Origin: Hafnia alvei
GTDB taxonomy: Bacteria > Pseudomonadota > Gammaproteobacteria > Enterobacterales > Enterobacteriaceae
Reading direction: 5' to 3'
Length of the DNA stretch: 64,000 nt
Assembly: GCF_900095695.1 (NCBI RefSeq)
Contig: NZ_FMIQ01000006.1
Location: 62,001-126,000 of the forward strand
Under the pieces are notes generated by a model. It saw only the letters and a program-made list of their open reading frames with translations. It was not told where the DNA came from and did not search any database. A program made the position numbers and the translations under genes. This document shows, piece after piece, positions 377-26,140 of this stretch (its first letter is position 1; every line of letters begins with the position of its first letter).

Positions 377-1435
377 CTAGCGAAACACATTCGCCTGGGT
401 TGCATGGGCGATGTACTCAATGGCTTCCTGCGCGCGCACGCTATTTCCTTCTTTATCCAGCGGCGGTGAATAGACCGCAACCGCATATTTGCCCGGAACG
501 ACGGCAAAAATTCCGCCGCCAACGCCGCTTTTTGCTGGGATCCCCACGTTATACAGCCACTGGCCCGAGCCGTCGTACAGGCCCGCAATCGCCATTTCAG
601 CCAGAATCTTTGGCACATTCTCCTCGGCGATAAGACGCTTACCGCTATAAGGTGACTGCCCATGATTGGCAAGCGTCGCGCCCATTTTAGCCAAGTCGAG
701 GGTAGAGGCATCCACGGAGCATTGGCGGGTATAAAGATCAACGGCTTCACGTGGATTGCTATACAGCCTACCGTACGACTGCATCAGCAAAGCGAGTGCC
801 TGATTATGCTGATTGGTTTCTGATTCAGACTGATACACTTCTTGATTAACGTGCAGCTGATTATCGGCAAAGGCATTCAAATTACCCATAATCTGCTCCC
901 ATTTGGCCTCAGCGTTCTTGGCGTTAAGCAAACTCACCGAGCTTATAGCCCCCGCATTCACCAGCGGATTTTGTGGGCGTTCTGGACGCAGTTCAACGGC
1001 TAAACCTGAATTAAAGGGAAGGCCGGTCGCATTCGCCCCCAGCTTATTCAGCGTCTGCTTTTGCCCTTGCTGTTCCATTGCCAGCGCCAGAGTAAATACT
1101 TTGGTAAGCGATTCGAGTGGAAAAAGTGCGTCTTTATTGCCTGCGGAAAAAATCTGCCCATCCACGGTGGCGACAACGATGGCGTAATTATCAGGACTAT
1201 ATTTCGCCAAGGCGGGAATGTAGTCGGCTACGTCACCACGTTTGTCATTTTTAAATTGCGTGTAGGCATTCTGCACTATGGCTGAATAGTTGGTGGTCGA
1301 AGGTTCGGCATTCGGCGCCGTTTTTGCGTAGCCAGTTCCCATCAAACACACGGTGATAAAAAAGGCTGAAATAACCTTATTTTTCATAAGTATTTTGGTT
1401 TGCATAAGTGATTTGGTTTTCATAAGCGTTTTCAT
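377..1435 (-). CDS. glsA: glutaminase, exported, serine-dependent
   Basis: Hydrolyses glutamine to glutamate and ammonia. The 352-residue protein has the glutaminase/beta-lactamase-like fold signature ESLTK (Ser-x-x-Lys nucleophile and base), the segment NPLVNAGAI and the glycine-rich KSGVGGG near the C-terminus. It starts with a signal peptide (hydrophobic ISAFFITVCLMGTGYA), so the enzyme should act in the periplasm. Start 1435 is chosen because TTAGGAAA lies 6-9 bases upstream. Three further in-frame Met codons (residues 5, 11, 17) lack a ribosome site. The N-terminus is built from near-identical 18-bp repeats that lengthen the positive n-region. In context it would supply glutamate to the symporter and the glutamate mutase pathway. 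The function call is firm. Confidence 0.93.
   Translation of the reverse strand: MKTLMKTKSLMQTKILMKNKVISAFFITVCLMGTGYAKTAPNAEPSTTNYSAIVQNAYTQFKNDKRGDVADYIPALAKYSPDNYAIVVATVDGQIFSAGNKDALFPLESLTKVFTLALAMEQQGQKQTLNKLGANATGLPFNSGLAVELRPERPQNPLVNAGAISSVSLLNAKNAEAKWEQIMGNLNAFADNQLHVNQEVYQSESETNQHNQALALLMQSYGRLYSNPREAVDLYTRQCSVDASTLDLAKMGATLANHGQSPYSGKRLIAEENVPKILAEMAIAGLYDGSGQWLYNVGIPAKSGVGGGIFAVVPGKYAVAVYSPPLDKEGNSVRAQEAIEYIAHATQANVFR
1387..1435 (-). repeat. short tandem repeat in the glutaminase signal-peptide n-region
   Basis: The first 16 codons are made of units coding M-K/Q-T-K-S/I-L (ATG-AAA/CAA-ACC-AAA-.-CTT). There are two 18-bp copies plus one shortened 12-bp copy, each starting with ATG. 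The repeat keeps frame, so changes in copy number would lengthen or shorten the signal-peptide n-region without breaking the gene. Confidence 0.7.
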
Positions 1436-1535: not shown

Positions 1536-2852
1536 TTATTTGGCTTCAGCTTCAATGATGAATTGCTCTGAAGGCTGGCTATCATCCACCATACTGTCGA
1601 GGCTCCTAGCGGTTCCGTGGCAGCCTTCGCCGTAATGTTCACCTTCCCAACGACCGACTAAAGCGGCACCGACGGCATTACTCATCACGTTAGTGGCTGA
1701 ACGTCCCATATCGAGGAAAGGATCGACGCCCATCAGCAGAATCAAGCCCGCTTCAGGGATATTAAACTGGCTCAACGTGGCTGCGATAACCACCAGCGAG
1801 GCTCTTGGAACACCCGCCATACCTTTTGATGTCAGCATTAAAATCAGCAGCATCGTAATTTGCTCGCCCATGCCAAGATGGATATTGCAGGCTTGGGCAA
1901 TAAAGATAACGGCAAACGAGCAGTAGGCCATTGAACCTACTAGGTTAAATGAATACCCAATCGGCAACACGAAGCTGGCAATTTTGTTGCTGACGCCAAA
2001 TTTTTCCAACGCTTCTAACGTACCAGGGAAGGCCGCTTCAGAACTTGAGGTGGTGAATGCCAGTAGGGCTGGCTCAGAAATACCTTTGATCAGTCGCAGG
2101 GTACAGCGGCCAATCAGCAATACTGAACAGCCAATCAGAATCACCCACAGGCCGGCCAGCGTGAAGTAAAACTCGCCCATGAAGATCCCGGCGCTTACTA
2201 ATACCCCAAGACCGCGCTCTGAGATCATCGCAGAGATGGCGGCGAATACGGTTAGAGGCGCGAAAAGCATGACGTAGCCCGTGAGTTTCAGCATCAGATG
2301 CGCTAACGAATCAAGCACGGAGACGATCGGCTGGGCTTTATCGCCGATGGCGGAAAGGCTGATCCCCATAAAGATAGAGAACACCACGATCTGAAGGATT
2401 TCATTACGCGCCATCGCGTCAACGATGCTGGTTGGGATCGCGTGAGCAATGAACACTTTCGCCGAGAACGGTACCGGCTCAATGCCATCAACGACACCTG
2501 CGCCCGCGGCGACAAAGTTGATACCATCACCAGGTCTCAGCAGATTCACCACGACCAGACCCAGTAAAATGGAGATGAACGCCGCGCAGATAAACAAAAA
2601 TAGCGTCTTAGAAAAAACACGCCCTAAGGTTTTGGCATCGCCCATTTTCGCGATCCCGACCACCAGCGTTGAAATGATTAACGGTGCAATAATCATTTTG
2701 ATTAAACGCAGGAAAATATCGGTAAAAATAGAGATCTCGGAGGCGTAGGATTTGGCGAATTCTTGGCTACAGAACTCGTTTATTAAAAAACCAGCAATAA
2801 CACCTATTATCAGACCCAATATGATCATTGTGGTTAGGTTTTTCGATTTCAT
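1536..2852 (-). CDS. dicarboxylate/amino acid:cation symporter (DAACS family, GltP/DctA-like)
   Basis: Integral inner-membrane carrier importing glutamate or C4-dicarboxylates with protons or sodium. The 438-residue protein has the family landmarks in order: RLIKMIIAPLIISTLVVGIA in the N-terminal membrane part, the re-entrant loop TSSSEAAFP, the segment PIGYSFN, GMAGVPRAS, and the substrate-site motif DPFLDMGRSATNV. About eight hydrophobic helices are visible. Its place between a glutaminase and a glutamate mutase operon argues for glutamate as substrate, but the sequence alone does not separate glutamate, aspartate and C4-dicarboxylates. It has its own upstream gap (2853-3128), so it is probably transcribed separately from the mutase operon, which has a terminator at 3063-3103. 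Confidence 0.9.
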   Translation of the reverse strand: MKSKNLTTMIILGLIIGVIAGFLINEFCSQEFAKSYASEISIFTDIFLRLIKMIIAPLIISTLVVGIAKMGDAKTLGRVFSKTLFLFICAAFISILLGLVVVNLLRPGDGINFVAAGAGVVDGIEPVPFSAKVFIAHAIPTSIVDAMARNEILQIVVFSIFMGISLSAIGDKAQPIVSVLDSLAHLMLKLTGYVMLFAPLTVFAAISAMISERGLGVLVSAGIFMGEFYFTLAGLWVILIGCSVLLIGRCTLRLIKGISEPALLAFTTSSSEAAFPGTLEALEKFGVSNKIASFVLPIGYSFNLVGSMAYCSFAVIFIAQACNIHLGMGEQITMLLILMLTSKGMAGVPRASLVVIAATLSQFNIPEAGLILLMGVDPFLDMGRSATNVMSNAVGAALVGRWEGEHYGEGCHGTARSLDSMVDDSQPSEQFIIEAEAK

Positions 2853-3128: not shown

Positions 3129-3446
3129 CTAAACCGCGAATTCAAGTTTTAACAGCGGTGCGTGCTGCTGAGCGCCATAGACGTCGGTATCGCCTACGGA
3201 ACCAGACACAATGCTGCGAGGCATTACCACCTTAACGGCATTCGCCGGGTCGAACCACACAATGCGATGAACTGATTTCGGATCTATTTTATAAATCTGA
3301 GCAATCAGCTCTTTTTTAAATTGTCCTGATTCTTTGATGTGGGAATATGTTTTTTTATCCTTAAATAAAATATCCAACACTAATTCATAAGGACCCGCAT
3401 TTTTAGATCTGACCACATGAGCCAACTCTAGGATTGATTGTTTCAT
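3129..3446 (-). CDS. DUF4387 protein, partner of the AtuA-like protein
   Basis: A 105-residue soluble protein matching, from memory, the DUF4387 family of unknown function. No known catalytic motif is visible. Its ATG overlaps the stop of the AtuA-like gene (ATGA), so the two are translationally coupled and probably made in equal amounts. DUF4387 also occurs as the C-terminal part of longer AtuA proteins, so this pair looks like a split version of one enzyme. It is the last gene of the glutamate mutase operon. A role in handling mesaconate or citramalate is inferred only from that position. Confidence 0.75.
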   Translation of the reverse strand: MKQSILELAHVVRSKNAGPYELVLDILFKDKKTYSHIKESGQFKKELIAQIYKIDPKSVHRIVWFDPANAVKVVMPRSIVSGSVGDTDVYGAQQHAPLLKLEFAV

Positions 3447-4816
3447 GCGATCGCTCCTTCAGGCGTCACGTTTTCTAAACGGAACTTAAATTTAATCTCA
3501 GGCGTATATTCCATTAAATGATAAATGGAGAATTCATACACCACGCCGCCTTTAATATCTGACGGAGAGAATGGGAACGCTAAATTACCCGCGGTTGCAA
3601 TTCGGCCTGAATAGCCATAATGCAGCAGGGTGGAGCGGGCGAGAGAGCAAATACTGTCGGCCATCGCCTGAGTAGGCGCCACGACGTCGAGTAAAATCCC
3701 CAGCTCATAAGAGGTGGTATTCGGCTCGGGCTCCATCTTGCCCATAACGCCATTTTTGCCGTAAAGATTGAAATTCAGCTTCACCGCGTCTGGAGCGATG
3801 CTCAAGTTCTTCTCTACGCTTTGACGCACTTCCACCAAGATATCGTCAATGTTGGCAATCATGATTGGATCACGGGTTCCGGCAATACTGAGCGTGCGAT
3901 AGCCCACAGGGCGAGCGCCTTCCAGCTTCACGGTATAAGGTGTTTCTTCATGTACCGAACCGGTCACACGGACTTGGCCATTGCCAGCATCTTTAAACTG
4001 ACAGGCTTTCAGGTTCAACACTCCGCCAGGACCCGGCAAGAAATAAGGATCTGATTTCTCATACAGCGTATGCGCCGCCGCAGAGGTCTCGGTAAACTGA
4101 CGTTTTTTGTTGAACGCTTTCAGGGTAAACCCGCTTTCGTCCAAAATGCCCATGGCGCAATCAGACCCTGATCCCGGCGTGGCCGCGATGGCCGCACACT
4201 CCAGTATTTTGCCGCAGTGCAACGCCAAACCTTCGTCGAATCCTTGCATGATAGGCAGGGCTGCAAAGCAGGCAGGATCGTAGGCTCGACCACCTAGCAC
4301 CACCTGCGCACCCGCCGCCAGCGCTTCTTGGAACGGCTCGATACCCATTTGCGCCACGATATAGGTGGTTGCATCGATGGCTTCGTGGGTCAGTTCAGGA
4401 ACAAAATCCAGCGCGGTAATTTTTCCGGCGTCGAGTGCTGCGTGAACGACCGCCTTATCCACGTCGGCAGGGATCACTGCCATGGTAAACTCGAGCGCTT
4501 CTTCTTTGGCAATCTCAAGAATGATTTGGCGACACCACTCAAGGTGAGGCGCGGCACCAGAACCCCCTGCGGTGCCAATCACCACCGGAATATTGTGCTG
4601 AACACCGGCGGTGATCATATAGCGCAAATCACGCTTGACCCCTGCGCGGTCGGTGAAGGCTTTGCCTGCGCCGAGATAATGTGGACCCGGATCGGAAGAA
4701 CCCGCGTCAACGGCGATCAAATCGGGAGATTCCTCCATCGCCAACATAAAGCTTTCTTCTGGGAACCCGTATCCCAGAATGGCGGTTGGCGACAAGATCT
4801 TAAACGTTTTAGACAT
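3443..4816 (-). CDS. AtuA-like protein (DUF1446)
   Basis: A 457-residue protein of the acyclic-terpene-utilisation AtuA family (DUF1446), whose biochemical reaction is unknown to me. Visible landmarks are the N-terminal AVDAGSSDPGPHYLG, the glycine-rich GTAGGSGAAPHLEW, and GGRAYDPA near residue 175. The gene starts one base past the stop of the methylaspartase gene and overlaps the next gene by 4 bp, so it is an integral member of the operon. Methylaspartase makes mesaconate, and the known next steps are hydration to citramalate and cleavage to acetate and pyruvate. No citramalate lyase is in the window, so this pair is a candidate for a downstream or alternative step. That role is inference. 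Confidence 0.8.
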   Translation of the reverse strand: MSKTFKILSPTAILGYGFPEESFMLAMEESPDLIAVDAGSSDPGPHYLGAGKAFTDRAGVKRDLRYMITAGVQHNIPVVIGTAGGSGAAPHLEWCRQIILEIAKEEALEFTMAVIPADVDKAVVHAALDAGKITALDFVPELTHEAIDATTYIVAQMGIEPFQEALAAGAQVVLGGRAYDPACFAALPIMQGFDEGLALHCGKILECAAIAATPGSGSDCAMGILDESGFTLKAFNKKRQFTETSAAAHTLYEKSDPYFLPGPGGVLNLKACQFKDAGNGQVRVTGSVHEETPYTVKLEGARPVGYRTLSIAGTRDPIMIANIDDILVEVRQSVEKNLSIAPDAVKLNFNLYGKNGVMGKMEPEPNTTSYELGILLDVVAPTQAMADSICSLARSTLLHYGYSGRIATAGNLAFPFSPSDIKGGVVYEFSIYHLMEYTPEIKFKFRLENVTPEGAIA

Positions 4817-4817
4817 G

Positions 4818-6062
4818 TTAGTTCGCCTTTGTATTCAACTGAGCGAGAGTACGCGACATCTCGTTAAATACGATATTCATCCCTTCATCAAAGCCCATCC
4901 CCGGCTTGATCAGCATACGCATTGGGCGCGAGGCGATGGCAACGTGCACACAGGTGCGGGCGCTAACGTCGGTTTCGTTACAGGTACCGCCCTGATAAGC
5001 CTCCATGCCTTTTTTATTACAGTAAAGAACGGCGTCGACGATGTTATGGATACTGCCCAGATCTGGCGTTTTAATCTGAACCATATGGCAGCTGCCGGCG
5101 TCGGTAAAATCGATGATGTCCTGATAGGTATTGCACCATTCATCAGCCACGATTTTGACCTTAGAGCCCAGCTTTTTAAGGTGATGGGTGATCTCGGTTA
5201 ACAGACGGATCTGATCGGGTTTGTTACCGGCGTCAACTGGACCTTCAATGTACAGTTCCAGATCGCCCGCTTGCTCTTGCAGGCTGGCAATATATTCCGC
5301 ACAGCGGATCGGATCTTTATCAAAAATCAGACCGATGGTGCCGTAAACGTCAATATGCAGATTCGGTTTATAGTTAGGATCGACGCGCAGATCGGCAATG
5401 CGCTTTGCCAGCCAGCTCACATACTCACGCAGCTTCTCACCGTTGCGGCCCAGTTTTTCATCCACGTTGTTAATCAGGCCGTGAGGCAGCACGTCAACGC
5501 CTTTCACGATCATTTTGTCGACGGCGATGTAGCGATCGTCACCGCTCTGGCCAAACAGAGGGATAGATTTGGCGATCACCGGCAGATGCCATTCGTCGCA
5601 GACAACTTCGGCTTTTAAACGACCGGTGGCTAACGCGGTTGCGTCCAGTAACGCCTGTGACAGACCATAGCGGATCGCCGTATGCAGCTGTTTGCCTTCA
5701 ATGGTCACGTCGTCAAAGAAGCGGGCGTTAAGCAAAAACTCATCTACGCTGCGGCCTTCAAGCAGCGGCTTAATGTGTTTTTCCAAGAACGGAACAAAGT
5801 TGGCAGCCACAAACAGCGGATCGCGACCGCCAGCGCCAGAGTATTGCACCGCCGCACAGTCACCCACGGCCACCGCGCCATTTTCTAAAATTAATTGGAT
5901 AGAAACGCATTCACCGGCCTGACGGATCGAGGTAAATCCTGGCGTGACCGGCTTCCCTTTATAGATAAACCCATCTAACTGAGCGCCATTTTTAATCGCC
6001 TGCTGATCGTCAAAATAGAAGGATGAATTGCCAGCGGTAAAGAGTGCGTGTTTGATTTTCAT
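4818..6062 (-). CDS. mal: methylaspartate ammonia-lyase
   Basis: Removes ammonia from (2S,3S)-3-methylaspartate to give mesaconate, the second step of the methylaspartate route. The 414-residue length is normal for this enolase-superfamily enzyme. Landmarks are GDCAAVQYSGAGGRDP near residue 70, the catalytic-lysine region with KIVADEWCNTYQD in the barrel, and MVQIKTPDLG near residue 330. The start ATG shares a base with the stop of glmE (TAATG), the usual arrangement for coupled genes. It lies directly between glmE and the AtuA-like gene. Confidence 0.95.
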   Translation of the reverse strand: MKIKHALFTAGNSSFYFDDQQAIKNGAQLDGFIYKGKPVTPGFTSIRQAGECVSIQLILENGAVAVGDCAAVQYSGAGGRDPLFVAANFVPFLEKHIKPLLEGRSVDEFLLNARFFDDVTIEGKQLHTAIRYGLSQALLDATALATGRLKAEVVCDEWHLPVIAKSIPLFGQSGDDRYIAVDKMIVKGVDVLPHGLINNVDEKLGRNGEKLREYVSWLAKRIADLRVDPNYKPNLHIDVYGTIGLIFDKDPIRCAEYIASLQEQAGDLELYIEGPVDAGNKPDQIRLLTEITHHLKKLGSKVKIVADEWCNTYQDIIDFTDAGSCHMVQIKTPDLGSIHNIVDAVLYCNKKGMEAYQGGTCNETDVSARTCVHVAIASRPMRMLIKPGMGFDEGMNIVFNEMSRTLAQLNTKAN

Positions 6063-7507
6063 TATGGTCTTCCTATTAATTTGCTATGGGATACAGCGTT
6101 AATATCATCAATGATCATTTGGAAAGAGGGCTCGCGGCCTTCTTCCTTGGCGCGTTCGGCAACAAAGTCGTGGTGCAGCGTCAAAACGTCTTTAGGCAAC
6201 GGCACTGAGCCCGGATCGAATACGCGGATCGCCCCGTTGTTGTCGCGGATCGGCAGCATTTTTCCTGAGTTGCAGGTGGCTGGCGCAAACGGCACATCCA
6301 GTACACCGGCTTCAAAGGCGCGTACGGTGCCGATTGCGATGTCGCCATTGCCCAGCTCCAGCACTTTGTTCATCACGGCACGCACTTCACGCTTGATAAG
6401 CTCCACTTCGCGATCGACTTCTAGGCACGGCGGGAATTTCTGATCGCGAACCATATTCAGCATCTGATTAGAGGCGCGTAGCCCTTGCCCATTAGCTTCT
6501 GCGGTTGGAATGCCATAAGCCTCATGCGGGCTCTTGGTAATCACCTTAGTGGCGCCAGCCATACCGGCAACCGCAGCACCCCACGAGATAACCGCGAATG
6601 CGCGGGACTCATCCTCAGGGAAACCGCCCATCCACTGATGGAAAACGGTGCTCAGCTCATAATTCTCATAGCCGTTGGCACGGAAATATTCATGAGACAG
6701 ATCGCGCAGTGATTTAATGGCGGCAATGTCTTGCACGATGTTACCGACCTGACCGTAGCCGACGGTAATAGAGCGAACGCCTTGCTCCAGCGCGAGCAGC
6801 CCTTCAATGATGGCCACCGCATGGGAAACAAACGGTGGGATCAGCGTGCCGGTCAGTGGGCCGAAAGGCTCTCGGTTGATCCGAATACCGTGCTCTTCAT
6901 ACACGCCGATCAAGCGGTCGCAGTACTGCCAATCACGGATGGATTTTTCGAGCGTGACGCGCTTAGCGTACGGAATGTTGTAGGAGATACCGCCGCCTTC
7001 GTAGCTGGTAAATCCGCTGGCCATCGCAATCTCGGCTAACAGGCGAGCATCGGGCGTGCCATGACGGATCTGCAGGGGCTTGTCGAGTGATTCGGTAATG
7101 CCGCGGCAGGCTTTTACGCCGTGGTTGACGACCGGCAGACCGTTAAGCTTTGACGTTCCTGCTTCAATGGATTTCTGAATGCCGATGGCGGCTTCTTCAT
7201 AACGATTCAGACGGGTATAAGCATCAATCGTGGTGGGCAGCAGATCGCAGTCTTTTTGCAGCGTTTTGAGCAGCGCAATATGCTCTTCAATTAACGCCAC
7301 CCCCGCACGTGGCTGGCTGAGCGTAATACCTTGGTTGTCGGCTTCAAACAGTGCCTTGGCAAAGTTTTTGGATTCAGGAATTGTTTGCTGGTATTTGACG
7401 CAGTCCTCAAATTTTTCAACATCCTTTCCGGTATGCCAAGTTTGTAAAACACCGGCACGCTCGGTCATAAAATCGTCTAACGTAATTTTTTTGTTTCGAA
7501 GTTCCAT
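6062..7507 (-). CDS. glmE: glutamate mutase, epsilon (catalytic) subunit
   Basis: Large subunit of adenosylcobalamin-dependent glutamate mutase, which interconverts L-glutamate and 3-methylaspartate. Conserved stretches include QPRAGVALI, RHGTPDARLLAE, the glycine-rich EGGGISYNIPYAK, NREPFGPLTGTL and VFHQWMGGFPEDES. Start 7507 is preferred over the ATG at 7510: TTGGAG sits 5 bases before the 7507 codon but only 2 before 7510, and known MutE proteins begin with MEL. The protein is 481 residues, a normal length. It lies between the reactivase glmL and mal in the operon. The gene is also called mutE. Confidence 0.95.
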   Translation of the reverse strand: MELRNKKITLDDFMTERAGVLQTWHTGKDVEKFEDCVKYQQTIPESKNFAKALFEADNQGITLSQPRAGVALIEEHIALLKTLQKDCDLLPTTIDAYTRLNRYEEAAIGIQKSIEAGTSKLNGLPVVNHGVKACRGITESLDKPLQIRHGTPDARLLAEIAMASGFTSYEGGGISYNIPYAKRVTLEKSIRDWQYCDRLIGVYEEHGIRINREPFGPLTGTLIPPFVSHAVAIIEGLLALEQGVRSITVGYGQVGNIVQDIAAIKSLRDLSHEYFRANGYENYELSTVFHQWMGGFPEDESRAFAVISWGAAVAGMAGATKVITKSPHEAYGIPTAEANGQGLRASNQMLNMVRDQKFPPCLEVDREVELIKREVRAVMNKVLELGNGDIAIGTVRAFEAGVLDVPFAPATCNSGKMLPIRDNNGAIRVFDPGSVPLPKDVLTLHHDFVAERAKEEGREPSFQMIIDDINAVSHSKLIGRP

Positions 7508-7521
7508 CATGACTCCAATTT

Positions 7522-8913
7522 TTACTTGTTCAAAATACGAACGCTAGTCTGGGCGGCAGCTTTAGGAAAGCGACGAGCGACATTGGCGAGTAGCGGAAGT
7601 AAACCCTGTGTATCTCGGTAATATTCAAACTGACTAGGCAGCAGCACTTGCTTGCCGTTGTCGTCCAGATCGCGATATTTCAACCAGTGGTGAATATCAA
7701 AATCATTGGCGCGCGAGAGCCAGCCACCGGTGCCGATCACTTTTCTGATCGGATTGAGATCTCGGCCCACTTGCAGGTCGACATTTCCGGCGCAGGTGCA
7801 GACCTGTACTTTTTTGCCCGCGTGGCGTTCGGCTGCATAACCCACACAGATCCCCGCCAGCAGTTGATCAAAGACGCGTTCTTCATCGGTACGTGGCAGA
7901 TAGCCCGGATGAGCCACCAGATGCTTCAGGTAATGATGAAAGGCCGCAATTTTGCTTTCTTGATGAGAAAAATAATGAGCAATCAGCGGTGCTCCGGTTT
8001 CACCTGCCGTGATGGCTGAAACTCGCATCCCCAGATCGCCTTCTACCGTGCGTTTGACGATGGGCTCTGGTAGCCCATGCATAACGGTATCCGGTGCCAG
8101 ACTGTTCTGGTTCGCCGAGTAAATATCGGTCGTGGCGCCGCCCATATCGAGAAGCATGAAGGTTTCCCATCCCACGACGTGCCGGCGGATCTGCTCCACC
8201 AGTTCGAAAACGGAGTAGGGGGTCGGTAAAGGTTCTTCGCCGGTTTGCTCGACAATGACGTCTAGCCCTTTACCCTTAACGATTTTATGCAGGAAAATAT
8301 CGCAAATAGCGCTGCGAGCACCCAATGGACTCGGGTTATCCAGGCTTGGTAAAACGTTATCGACGATGGTTAAATCCTTATCGCCGAGCAGATCTTGAAT
8401 CTCATCTTGCAGGTCGCGATTACCCGCATAAATAATGGCGCATTCGAGATTAGATTTGGCCAACAGCTTGGCGTTAGCTAAACCATGCACGCAGTCACCG
8501 CCGTCGGTGCCTCCGGTAAACAGCAAAATATCGGGCGGCGTGGTCTCTAAAGCACGCAGATCTGCTTTGTTCAGGTTATAAGCAAAATGCTGTGAAACCT
8601 TTGCTCCGGCAGAATGCGCCGTGACCTTCGCCGACTCTAACGTAATGCTGGGCACCAGACCGATGGCGGCAACGGCCAGTCCACCTTTGGCCGACGAGGA
8701 ATAATCGAGTTTGATTTTTCCCGACGCCAAGAGCGGACGTGCATCGTCAACGTTGAGGATTTTATTCAGAACGGTAAAAAATCCCTCAGCCAGATGGTGC
8801 GGTGTTGTTGGAGATAATGCACAGTTCTTGACTTCAATATGGTCATTATCTCCCACCTCGAACACTGCTCCTTTCGTCCACGTGGAGCCGATATCGATAG
8901 AGACGTTGATCAT
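7522..8913 (-). CDS. glmL: glutamate mutase reactivase, MutL/GlmL
   Basis: An ATPase of the Hsp70/actin/sugar-kinase fold that exchanges damaged cobalamin on glutamate mutase. The 463-residue protein has phosphate-binding loop 1, DIGSTWTKG, at residues 7-15, and loop 2, [11 protein letters not shown], around residue 255. A further glycine-rich stretch, [10 protein letters not shown], lies near residue 130. It overlaps the end of glmS by an ATGA junction. The order glmS-glmL-glmE-mal matches the clostridial cluster as known from the literature. It is not the DNA-repair MutL. Confidence 0.93.
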
Positions 8914-9356
8914 TGCACGCCCTCTGCAACACGTTCGTTTTGCATGACGGGCTCAATGTCTTTTCTCATCAGCGAGCAAACCAGCTCCAGATCCGTATCA
9001 GGGGCGAAGACCCGGTTAAAGCCCATCCCTTTAAACTTGGCTTCGATATCGCAAAAGTCATGTTTACCGATAACCAGATTACCGCCCACATAGAGCAGAA
9101 TGTCGCCGATGCCGCGCTCGATGCAGTTTTCCCGCATGCCGATGCAGTCCACTTCACCGTGCCCATAAATAGAGGAAACGACGATAGCCTGCGCGCCGGT
9201 TTCAATGGCCGCATCAATATACTCATCTTGGCTAACCATCACGCCGAGATTAATGACGTTGAAATCGTGCATGGTGAATACGCGATCTAATACTTTGTTA
9301 CCAACAGCATGGCAATCAGCACCGATGACGCCAATAACAATTGTTGGATTTTGCAT
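8910..9356 (-). CDS. glmS: glutamate mutase, sigma (cobalamin-binding) subunit
   Basis: Small subunit that binds adenosylcobalamin base-off through its histidine. The signature D-x-H-x-x-G is Asp14-His16-Gly19. Further B12-domain landmarks are SSIYGHGE and [10 protein letters not shown]. The frame stays open to 9446, but the ATG at 9356 is taken as the start: GAGGG sits 9 bases before it, and the resulting 148 residues fit the family (about 137). It is the first gene of the operon. The long leader upstream carries a perfect FNR box. The name is not to be confused with glucosamine synthase GlmS. Confidence 0.93.
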
Positions 9357-9750
9357 GTTAATAAGCCCTCTATTTAGATAACGGTCCATATTTAGCTTGG
9401 TGACTGGAAAGTTAATGCCATGATCAAAATCATGATTGAAACTCACCAGAGGTTATTTTTTGTGACATGCTGCATATAAAGTGTTGGCGATAACGCGACG
9501 ATAAAAATTCAAAAAAAACCGCTGAATATTTGTTCATTACAATGTGCTTTTTGCGCCAATCAAACACAATTGATATCTCGTCAGGAGTTCTTGAAAAATA
9601 AATAAATTATTATTTAAAAATAAAAAAATTAAATAAAATCGTTCAATAACATGGTGTTATGTGTTTATTGCTTTTTGTGAAAATACATAACCCCCCGCTA
9701 GGGTGCTAAATGATTATCCATTTTTGTGATCTACTTAGTATTTAGTGGAG

Positions 9751-22806: not shown

Positions 22807-23730
22807 ATGCGCTGTAAAATTCCTAAGACCGATCTATTAGTGACGTTTGAAGCCGTGGCTCAGTATGAAAGCTACACGCGTGCTGCAGAGAAATTAGCGT
22901 TAACACAGAGTGCGGTATTCCGTCAGATAACCGCATTAGAAGAATTTCTTAACGTGTCTTTATTCCATCATGTGCGTAAGCGCATTTTTCTTAACGACGC
23001 AGGCCGTTATTATCTCGACCTCGTCAGAGATACGTTAGAGCAGATGGAGCGTGATACACAAAGTATTATGTCTTATCAGTCTACCCAGCAGATTTTAGAA
23101 TTAGCGGTGACGCCGACGTTTAGCACGCACTGGCTTATTCCTAACCTCAGTGACTTTCATGAAAATAATCCAGAGATAGTGCTTAACTTAATTGCGTTAA
23201 CCACACCGGCTGATTTTTTAAATCTACGCTATGACGCCGTGATTATGCGAGAAGACTTCTGTAGCCCCTGGGCCGAAAATGAACATTTATTTGAAGAGGA
23301 ATTAGTTCCGGTCTGTAGCCGAATGCTGTGGCGTGATGATAAAGAAGTGATGCGCGCAGACCAGTTACTGGATGAGTATAGGCTATTACATCAGACTACA
23401 CGTCTAGATTCGTGGCACGACTGGTTTGCGTTATCTGGCGTGAGTAGCCCGCAGGTGCGCATGGGGCCTCGCTTCGATCTGCTCTCTATGCTGATTTCTG
23501 CGGTGCGTTCTAATTTAGGCGTGGCGCTGCTGCCGCGCTTTGCGATTCATAAAGATCTTGAAAATGGCGATATGGTGATCCCGTGTGATTTACCGATGAG
23601 TACAGGTAATCACTTTATTTTAACCTATAAAGAAGGCAAACGAGGATTACGTAGTTTGCAGAAGTTTAGCCACTGGGTTCATGAAAAATCAAAGGATGAA
23701 GAGTTAAAGAAAACACGTATTCACGGTTAA
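22807..23730 (+). CDS. LysR-family transcriptional regulator
   Basis: A 307-residue DNA-binding regulator. The N-terminal winged helix-turn-helix (about residues 5-63) has TRAAEKLALTQSAVFRQITALEE, here cited as the motif A-A-E-x-L-x-x-T-Q-S-A-x-x-x-Q-I, followed by a linker helix and a LysR substrate-binding domain. It lies between the corrinoid operon and the fumarase gene. The inverted repeat at 23740-23824, just behind it and before the fumarase gene, is a plausible binding site. The target pathway (glutamate fermentation, mesaconate) is inferred from location only. Confidence 0.9.
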   Translation: MRCKIPKTDLLVTFEAVAQYESYTRAAEKLALTQSAVFRQITALEEFLNVSLFHHVRKRIFLNDAGRYYLDLVRDTLEQMERDTQSIMSYQSTQQILELAVTPTFSTHWLIPNLSDFHENNPEIVLNLIALTTPADFLNLRYDAVIMREDFCSPWAENEHLFEEELVPVCSRMLWRDDKEVMRADQLLDEYRLLHQTTRLDSWHDWFALSGVSSPQVRMGPRFDLLSMLISAVRSNLGVALLPRFAIHKDLENGDMVIPCDLPMSTGNHFILTYKEGKRGLRSLQKFSHWVHEKSKDEELKKTRIHG

Positions 23731-23885: not shown

Positions 23886-25532
23886 ATGCATAAAAATGAT
23901 TTTTTTTACCAAGAGATATTTCCTCTTTCTGAAGACGAAACGGAATATTACCTACTTACCGATAAATACGTTTCTACCTTCACGATTAATGGCAAGGAAG
24001 TGCTTAAAATAGAACCCGAGGCGTTAACGCTGGTTTCTCAACAGGCGTTTCATGATGCATCATTTTTCCTACGCCCCGCGCATCAGCAGCAGGTAGCGGC
24101 TATTTTGCAAGATCCACAGGCCAGTGAAAACGATAAATATGTCGCTTTACAACTCCTGCGTAATTCTGAAATCTCGGCCAAAGGCATTTTGCCCAACTGC
24201 CAAGATACGGGAACATCAACGATTGTTGCAAAGAAAGGCCAGTATGTTTGGACCGATACTGACGACGTTGAAGCGCTGTCGCGCGGCATTTTTAACACTT
24301 TCCGCCAAGACAATTTGCGCTATTCACAAAATGCGGCGTTGGATATGTACAACGAAGTGAATACCGCGACCAACCTGCCTGGGCAAATTGATATTTTTGC
24401 CACCACGGGCGCACAGTATTCATTCTTGTTCGTGAATAAAGGCGGCGGCTCAGCCAACAAAGCCGCGCTGTATCAGGAAACTAAAGCCATTCTTGAGCCG
24501 GAAAAACTAAAAGCATTTCTGATCGAAAAAATGAAAAGTTTGGGCACGGCAGCCTGCCCGCCGTATCACATAGCCTTTGTGATTGGGGGCTTATCGGCGG
24601 AACAAACGCTAAAAACCGCCAAGTTGGCCTCAACCAAATATTTCGATGCGCTGCCGGTGAGCGGCAATGAATATGGTCAGGCATTCCGCGATACGCACTT
24701 AGAACAGAGCTTGCTTGAGGCATCACGCGAGTTTGGCTTGGGGGCGCAGTTTGGCGGCAAATATTTTGCGCATGATGTGCGTGTGATTCGTTTGCCACGT
24801 CATGGTGGATCTTGCCCGATTGGCATGGCGATATCGTGCTCGTCCGATCGTAATATCAAAGCAAAAATCAATAAACAGGGGATCTGGCTGGAAAAATTAG
24901 AGCGCCATCCCGAACGCCTGATCCCGCAGGCGATGCGCCAGCAGCAAGAAGGGCAGGTGGTCAATATTGACCTCAGCCGCCCGATGGCGGAGATCCAGCT
25001 AGAGCTTTCACGCTATCCGGTTTCTACGCGTGTGTCGCTCAACGGGCCGTTGATTGTGGCGCGTGACATCGTGCATGCCAAGCTCAAAGAGCGCTTAGAA
25101 CGGGGTGAACCGCTGCCGCAATACATGAAAGATCACCCCGTGTACTATGCGGGGCCGGCAAAAAAACCGGACGAGCATGTGTCAGGTTCCATGGGGCCAA
25201 CCACCGGTGGGCGAATGGATAGCTACGTTGAACTTTTCCAATCTCACGGCGGAAGTTTAGTGATGCTCGCCAAAGGCAACCGTAGCCAGCAGGTAACCGA
25301 CGCCTGCGCCCAGCATGGGGGCTTTTATCTGGGCAGTATTGGCGGCTCGGCGGCAATTCTGGCGCAGGAATATATTGAAAGCTTGGAGTGCCTTGAGTAT
25401 CCCGAACTGGGCATGGAAGCGGTGTGGAAAATGAACGTCAAAAACTTCCCTGCGTTTATTTTGGTCGATGACAAAGGCCACTCATTCTTCGACCAGATTC
25501 AAATGAAGGCATGTGCAGGCTGTCAGAAATAG
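23886..25532 (+). CDS. class I fumarase, probable mesaconase
   Basis: Iron-sulfur hydratase of the FumA/FumB/FumD type; reversibly hydrates fumarate, and members of this class also hydrate mesaconate to citramalate. The 548-residue protein has the cluster-binding cysteines in [10 protein letters not shown] (Cys105), TAACPPYH (about 224) and GSCPIGMA (about 318), and the C-terminal [13 protein letters not shown] and ACAGCQK typical of class I. E. coli O157:H7 FumD, described as a mesaconase, lies in a comparable glutamate mutase cluster (from memory). Mesaconate is what Mal produces here, so a mesaconase role is likely, but the sequence alone does not exclude an ordinary fumarase. Confidence 0.9.
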
Positions 25533-25549
25533 CCAACAGGAGCATCGTC

Positions 25550-26140
25550 ATGAGTGAGGAACGCTATCAACAACGTCAACAACAGCTCAAAGAGCGCGTT
25601 GAACAGCGGGTTGCGGCAGCCACGAAACGCGGTGGGATCGTGATTGTTTTTACCGGTAATGGCAAAGGCAAAACCTCGGCGGCGTTCGGTACAGCGGCAC
25701 GGGCAATCGGTCACGGCATGAAGGTGGGCGTGGTGCAATTTATCAAAGGAGAGTGGGAGAGCGGCGAGCGAAATCTACTCGAACGCGCCGGGGCTGAGTT
25801 TCATATTATGGCAACCGGTTTTACCTGGAATACCCAAGATAAGCTGTCGGATACCCAGGCTGCGGTGACGGCGTGGGAACAAGGCAAGCGCATGCTGGCC
25901 GATCCCACCTATGGGCTGGTTATCTTAGACGAACTGACCTACATGCTGACCTATGGCTATTTGCCACTCAATGAGGTGTTAACCGCGCTAGAAAATCGAC
26001 CTGCTCAACAAAATGTGGTGATCACAGGAAGAGCCTGCCACCGTGAAATCATTGCGTTGGCAGATACGGTCAGTGAAATGCGGCCGGTGAAACACGCCTT
26101 TGACAGCGGTATTCAGGCACAGGCAGGTATTGATTGGTAA
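25550..26140 (+). CDS. btuR: cob(I)alamin adenosyltransferase BtuR
   Basis: Attaches the adenosyl group to cobalamin or its precursors, making the cofactor form used by glutamate mutase. The start is ATG 25550 behind CAGGAG; a longer frame from 25511 overlaps the fumarase gene and is not used. The resulting 196 residues equal the E. coli length. The nucleotide loop TGNGKGKTSA is at about residues 35-44, followed by VVQFIKG and LDELTYML. It starts 17 bp after the fumarase stop, so the two are one transcript. Confidence 0.94.
   Translation: MSEERYQQRQQQLKERVEQRVAAATKRGGIVIVFTGNGKGKTSAAFGTAARAIGHGMKVGVVQFIKGEWESGERNLLERAGAEFHIMATGFTWNTQDKLSDTQAAVTAWEQGKRMLADPTYGLVILDELTYMLTYGYLPLNEVLTALENRPAQQNVVITGRACHREIIALADTVSEMRPVKHAFDSGIQAQAGIDW

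Follow-up and report, generated by a model that had tools for sequence, protein, structure and literature searches.

A probable two-chain citramalate lyase (CmlAB) encoded directly after methylaspartate ammonia-lyase in a glutamate fermentation operon of Hafnia alvei

For Enterobacteriaceae, Kronen et al. (2015; PMC4682846) described a glutamate-fermentation cluster with FumD, in which a DUF1446 gene follows the methylaspartate ammonia-lyase gene mal. As far as the accessible text of that paper goes, about 27% of the E. coli strains carry the cluster, Dictyoglomus thermophilum likewise has a DUF1446 gene following mal, and the fate of citramalate was called unclear. According to the same text, citramalate lyase activity was undetectable in extracts of E. 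coli O157:H7 with high citrate lyase, and likewise in O157:H7 extracts rich in isocitrate lyase or methylcitrate-pathway activity. Two PDB entries, 9erq and 9evf, carry a two-chain enzyme named by its depositors citramalate lyase subunit A (cmlA) and subunit B (cmlB), with the alternative names 'acyclic terpene utilization AtuA family protein' and 'DUF4387 domain-containing protein'. Entry 9evf, released 2025-10-08, bears the title 'Citramalate lyase - ADP - pyruvate complex', from which the assignment of pyruvate and ADP to CmlAB comes. No paper on CmlAB was found in the open-licence literature searched, and its function therefore rests on the depositors' name and on the tests of gene context given below. 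Relatives of AtuA have been described as lyases (PMC4847356; PMC12016498); the available text gives the lyase role of AtuA itself as tentative (PMC4847356), labels the ThnQS result as unpublished, and assigns LiuE a part in acyclic terpene catabolism by a reference title (both PMC12016498). By these descriptions, AtuA and ThnQS would cleave at a tertiary hydroxyl as CmlAB would, but unlike CmlAB on CoA-ester substrates.

Here, we analyzed a window of Hafnia alvei DNA, meaning the whole stretch of 64,000 nucleotides under study, by ORF and profile scans. The following features are of interest:

377..1435, minus strand: glutaminase A (PF04960; NF009020 and TIGR03814 above cut-off)
1536..2852, minus strand: sodium:dicarboxylate-family symporter (PF00375, 358 bits)
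3129..3446, minus strand: cmlB, probable citramalate lyase small chain, 105 aa (DUF4387, PF14330, 131.7 bits, cut-off 27)
3443..4816, minus strand: cmlA, probable citramalate lyase large chain, 457 aa (AtuA, PF07287, 71.8 bits, cut-off 22.8)
4818..6062, minus strand: mal, methylaspartate ammonia-lyase (TIGR01502, 540.6 bits, cut-off 286)
6062..7510, minus strand: glmE, methylaspartate (glutamate) mutase subunit E (TIGR01503, 802 bits, cut-off 390)
7522..8913, minus strand: glmL, mutase accessory protein (NF040745, 493.9 bits, cut-off 475)
8910..9446, minus strand: glmS, mutase B12-binding subunit (NF002612 and TIGR01501 above cut-off)
22807..23730, plus strand: LysR-family regulator (PF00126 and PF03466)
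23886..25532, plus strand: class I fumarase, probable mesaconase, FumD-like (PF05681 and PF05683)
25511..26140, plus strand: ATP:corrinoid adenosyltransferase (PF02572)

On the minus strand, glmS-glmL-glmE-mal-AtuA-DUF4387 form a head-to-tail row, the first four genes all scoring above an NCBIfam cut-off, with a gap of 1 base between mal and the AtuA gene and an overlap of 4 bases between the AtuA and DUF4387 genes. ORF coordinates and Pfam and NCBIfam matches thereby confirm the operon layout given in a preliminary description of this DNA. Because the family match in the glmS ORF begins only at residue 31-34, the true glmS start is probably internal to the called ORF. The pair directly follows mal, as described before, but it need not be the end of the operon, since the symporter, for which a role in glutamate uptake is inferred, and the glutaminase follow on the same strand. 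No terminator-like site on the minus strand was found from 3129 to 2852, but this carries little weight, as the scan has a yield lower than on shuffled sequence. The probable mesaconase proposed earlier for the window is a class I fumarase by Pfam; it scores below the cut-offs of the NCBIfam equivalogs and is 84-86% identical to Yersinia homologs located near glm. The adenosyltransferase gene beside it would provide the mutase cofactor, and cobalamin-biosynthesis genes were also detected on the plus strand farther along the window. Despite these genes and the B12-dependent mutase, an Rfam search of window positions 1-64000 at gathering thresholds gave no match, hence no cobalamin riboswitch was found.

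Glutamate mutase, mal, the DUF1446 (AtuA) gene, gltP, fumD, cobA, LysR, glsA, and SumT are common to the window and the cluster of Kronen et al., as far as the latter is given in the accessible text. On a Salmonella plasmid, the same genes form a single row that runs onward through the symporter, glsA, fumarase, and cobO. Among complete E. coli genomes, 1076 of 5426 match the window operon, and in 552 the match spans at least 80% of its length.

Searched against PDB sequences (phmmer, E ≤ 1), the large chain gave a single match, 9erq_A, with 824.9 bits over residues 1-455 of 457 and 80% identity. The small chain matched 9erq_B with 153.7 bits over residues 1-103 of 105 (67% identity over 103 residues), the one further match being at chance level. 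9erq_A shows 100% identity to Klebsiella michiganensis CmlA (L054), and 9erq_B, where it aligns, 98% identity to CmlB of the same locus, in which cmlAB stands after mal with a fumarase gene downstream. AlphaFold models were built from the window and the fetched loci (pLDDT 88.9 and 91.5). The CmlA model matched 9evf_A with a TM score of 0.94 and Z of 51.7, and the CmlB model matched 9evf_B with a TM score of 0.97, while Foldseek searches with both chain models returned nothing besides 9evf at E ≤ 0.001. In a second structure search, a small-domain resemblance with Z up to 9.1 was seen for CmlA residues ~303-427, which we do not read as kinship. Hence, the window's pair is like the enzyme of 9erq and 9evf in both chains, in predicted fold, in its place after mal, and in having a fumarase gene nearby; it differs in sequence to the extent given above and in the fumarase gene, which lies ~19 kb from cmlA on the opposite strand.

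From these matches we conclude, with a probability of roughly 0.93, that the pair is CmlA and CmlB, a two-chain citramalate lyase without a CitD, CitE, or CitF part; PF07287 and PF14330 are its only domains, and the CitD, CitE, and CitF chains are not present. The Clostridia citramalate lyase of the CitDEF type resembles CmlAB in the proposed reaction and in its neighborhood to mal, but has no domain in common with the window's pair. The pair is thus orthologous to an enzyme that already has a name, and its cluster has been described before. The preliminary description had seen a gap at this point, with no citramalate lyase in the window and the pair as a candidate for an undescribed step on mesaconate or citramalate. 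If the pair is citramalate lyase, the gap is therefore filled by the pair itself: citramalate is very probably the substrate, and the step cannot be called undescribed, as 9erq and 9evf already carry its enzyme. The earlier suggestion of one enzyme in two chains agrees with the nearly full-length matches of both proteins to subunits A and B.

In the proposed pathway, glutamate would be converted to 3-methylaspartate by GlmES with B12, GlmL keeping the mutase active, 3-methylaspartate to mesaconate by Mal, mesaconate to (S)-citramalate by the FumD-like mesaconase, and (S)-citramalate to pyruvate and acetate by CmlAB. Sequence, predicted fold, and gene context are the evidence obtained here for CmlAB as the enzyme of the last step, the chemistry of which would be a retro-aldol cut beside a tertiary carbinol. 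The reaction proposed for AtuA and that reported for ThnQS would be described by this cut as well, and in all three the leaving carbon would be the one bearing the free carboxylate.

To characterize the surroundings of mal in other genomes, a query of three rows led by the window's Mal was used, and loci were typed by tblastn with proteins of the window, of its genome, and of L026. The loci are the best 80 of at least 576 relatives with one genome per species, so that the following shares are not frequencies. Among these best 80 of at least 576, cmlA is the next gene after mal in 50, and 48 of these 50 also have cmlB, the remaining two loci ending 1510 and 880 bases beyond mal. Within the same set of 80, citF occurs in 16 loci, a CaiB-type CoA transferase with a citE-like gene in 5, and cml together with citF, as searched by tblastn, in none. 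The other nine comprise one locus with citDE at a contig edge, one with a CoA transferase only, one with a citE-like gene only, and six with none of these. Nearly all cml loci contain glmE (49 of 50), and a fumarase hit was obtained in 32. Enterobacterales contribute 21 of the cml loci; 29 lie outside this order, three of them Pseudomonadota by name and others from Spirochaetota, Bacillota, Planctomycetota, Acidobacteriota, Lentisphaerota, Latescibacterota, and Riflebacteria. Also, a replicon of Prevotella nigrescens (Bacteroidota) carries glmSLE-mal-cmlAB together with a two-part fumarase.

Two side observations concern these loci. The third arrangement after mal, the CaiB-type CoA transferase with the citE-like gene (L068, L074, L077, L084, and L087), was seen in Marinobacter, Ruegeria, Cochlodiniinecator, Gamma proteobacterium IMCC1989, and Glaciecola. 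Furthermore, an uncharacterised protein of ~320 aa with a P-loop motif and a weak tRNA_SAD match (L078, 12962-13915; ortholog in L146, 11141-12193) is encoded in 24 of the 29 non-enterobacterial and none of the 21 enterobacterial cml loci, and in 11 of 16 citF, none of six caiB, and one of eight other loci; it had no match in the window's genome in a search without positive control.

The plain retro-aldol cut does not account for the ADP in the title of 9evf. This ADP may be a co-substrate or an effector, or it may mimic the ADP moiety of CoA, the last being conceivable because CoA esters are given as the substrates of AtuA and ThnQS. We regard it as possible, though with clearly less than even confidence, that CmlAB is nucleotide-dependent: ATP would phosphorylate the citramalate carboxylate, the acyl phosphate would yield acetyl phosphate and pyruvate, and acetate kinase would regain ATP. 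The joint naming of ADP and pyruvate in the 9evf title speaks for such a reaction, as do glycines 81, 84, and 87, which are conserved in glm-linked and other large chains; however, ADP may have been added as a ligand, or act as an effector or CoA mimic, and no ATP-binding fold was identified, the structure searches having given nothing beyond 9evf and the one small domain described above. Further large-chain residues, namely R177, D180, K203, E206, C207, H249, Y252, E253, K297, E299, and D316, are conserved in ≥95% of the glm-linked chains (30 sequences) and ≥90% of the others (14 sequences), the fused L135 being omitted. In the small chain, 20 positions are invariant in 29 sequences, including R13-S14-K15-N16, D88, Y90, Q93, Q94, and H95.

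More remote relatives were found beyond the mal loci. The core of AtuA is homologous to CmlA (hhalign probability of 97% against a 599-aa AtuA), but its partner domain is AtuA_ferredoxin (PF23544), fused or encoded by the next gene, where the window's pair has DUF4387. Single-sequence comparisons gave no signal of homology between these two partner domains. The AtuA operon of L151 contains acyl-CoA carboxylase and hydratase genes, and the window's pair has no such neighbors. In a sample of 299 Pseudomonadota genomes, DUF4387 was present in 19 and glmE in 4, with both in only one, that of the window, so that the family is not exclusively linked to glutamate: 18 of the 19 DUF4387 genomes lack glmE. 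As to mal itself, 25 of the 299 genomes scored above the MAAL_C cut-off, more than 300 bits being reached in 5; the other 20 were taken as enolase-superfamily relatives. The link to methylaspartate enzymes assumed in the preliminary description consequently does not hold for the broad family, but it does for close relatives of the pair, which stand directly after mal in the 50 loci counted above.

From the 18 other DUF4387 genomes, 15 stretches were retrieved, and in all 15 an AtuA gene is directly beside DUF4387, in one case fused to it. Fused proteins, mentioned in the preliminary description, do exist (L135, 693 aa, a true AtuA-DUF4387 fusion) but are rare here. A second candidate, L128, was rejected as two genes, its AtuA match at 4504-5856 lying in the frame 4492-5862 and its DUF4387 match at 5886-6170 in the frame 4479-6194. 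Neighbors of the pairs outside glm clusters, as far as scanned, include TctA, TctB, TctC, CitMHS, and 2HCT transporters, aconitase-family proteins, LysR and sigma-54 regulators, and CoA transferases, besides TonB receptors, ABC and MFS transporters, a radical SAM protein, and others without evident link. Because these neighbors vary and the large chains are 32-55% identical to that of the window, the family name by itself does not fix citramalate as the substrate. A single clade of glm-linked CmlA was not obtained either: the tree (midpoint root, long branches flagged) needs two changes, because L130 and L140-L142, from one genus without glmE, branch among the glm-linked sequences. This genus (f36/g74; L130, L140, L141, and L142) has a CmlAB pair with a large chain of 53-55% identity, and its genomes gave no match to glmE; the pair of L130 has CoA transferases and two citE-like stretches beside it.

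Distant pairs beside citrate-type transporters and aconitase-like genes, together with the CoA esters given for AtuA and ThnQS in the accessible descriptions, could be taken to mean that the true substrate of the window's pair is a related tertiary-hydroxy acid or its CoA ester, with citramalate as a mere side substrate. We hold this to be very improbable in view of the fixed place after mal in 50 of the 80 loci (best 80 of at least 576), the fumarase neighbor in two contexts without glm genes, and the PDB name.

One of these two contexts is the Klebsiella pneumoniae plasmid pHNLC3 (L143, 7952-17048), where LysR, AtuA, DUF4387, dehydrogenase, and fumarase genes lie together and glutamate mutase is missing. 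Two aldehyde dehydrogenases flank two alcohol-type dehydrogenases in this row, by which a branched C5 alcohol is possibly oxidized to mesaconate. Twelve Klebsiella plasmid records, pHNLC3 and 11 others, encode an AtuA protein at least 99% identical to that of pHNLC3, and the same 12 also hold its fumarase at 99% identity or more. The plasmid is typed as conjugative and carries blaCTX-M-24 and fosA3 nearby. The other context is plasmid NZ_HG938357.1 of Neorhizobium galegae HAMBI 1141 (L144, 1730-12201), with AtuA (57% identity to the window's), DUF4387, and class I fumarase at the end of a gene row and no glutamate mutase in the context. Genes for a ferredoxin reductase, an aldehyde dehydrogenase, a class III aminotransferase, a ferredoxin, an arginase-family protein, a P450, and an SDR precede the pair. 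Galega officinalis, host of Neorhizobium galegae, makes galegine (3-methylbut-2-enylguanidine). For this reason, the row is a candidate galegine degradation pathway via mesaconate and citramalate, in which galegine would be converted to prenylamine, 3-methylcrotonate, mesaconate, citramalate, and finally pyruvate and acetate.

A lyase elsewhere in the genome was a further point of the preliminary description, and another contig of the window's genome holds a complete-looking citC-D-E-F-X-G cluster, accompanied by DpiBA and a DASS transporter. That this CitDEF citrate lyase cleaves citramalate while the pair does something else is nevertheless very unlikely, since the cluster lies on another contig in what is a citrate-fermentation setting, no cleavage of citramalate was detected with the citrate lyase of E. 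coli O157:H7 according to the accessible text (PMC4682846), the PDB enzyme that the pair matches bears the name citramalate lyase, and CitF had no match in 20 of the 29 non-enterobacterial cml genomes, which are mostly MAGs of unstated completeness, in which an absent gene may mean an absent contig. One more of these genomes gave a weak CitF match under the cut-off; the search detected CitF in five of five citF genomes used as control. As a counter-point to the CmlAB assignment, CitF was strongly matched in the remaining 8 of the 29, and the window's genome carries it too. A CitDEF or citramalyl-CoA route as the step of the operon was rejected, as the profile scan found no CitDEF genes in it, no CaiB-type transferase with citramalyl-CoA lyase stands beside mal in the window, and the lone RipC/Ccl match in the window's genome was below the cut-off and is the citE gene.

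With the pair assigned as CmlAB by the PDB match, the step of enterobacterial glutamate fermentation that was left open in 2015, as the accessible text has it, both for the DUF1446 gene and for what becomes of citramalate, would be closed. CmlAB takes the place of CitDEF beside mal in bacteria from many phyla. For annotation, a name becomes available for AtuA/DUF4387 pairs located beside mal or a mesaconase gene; with 18 of 19 DUF4387 genomes in the Pseudomonadota sample lacking glmE, it should not be given to every pair. More speculatively, and in our view rather doubtful, the AtuA core and a partner of ~100 aa, DUF4387 or AtuA_ferredoxin as second chain or fused, might constitute one C-C lyase superfamily that cuts tertiary-hydroxy acids beside a free carboxylate. 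The nucleotide would then be a true co-substrate, ATP giving an acyl phosphate where other lyases use a CoA or ACP thioester. If so, CmlAB would be the branch for glutamate and mesaconate, AtuA that for terpenes, and ThnQS that for PAH. Copies near citrate-type transporters or aconitase-like genes would be lyases for citrate-like acids, a role that is possible for the AtuA-DUF4387 pairs of L136, near a CitMHS transporter, a 2-hydroxyacid dehydrogenase, and an aconitase-family protein, and of L132, near aconitase large and C-terminal domains.
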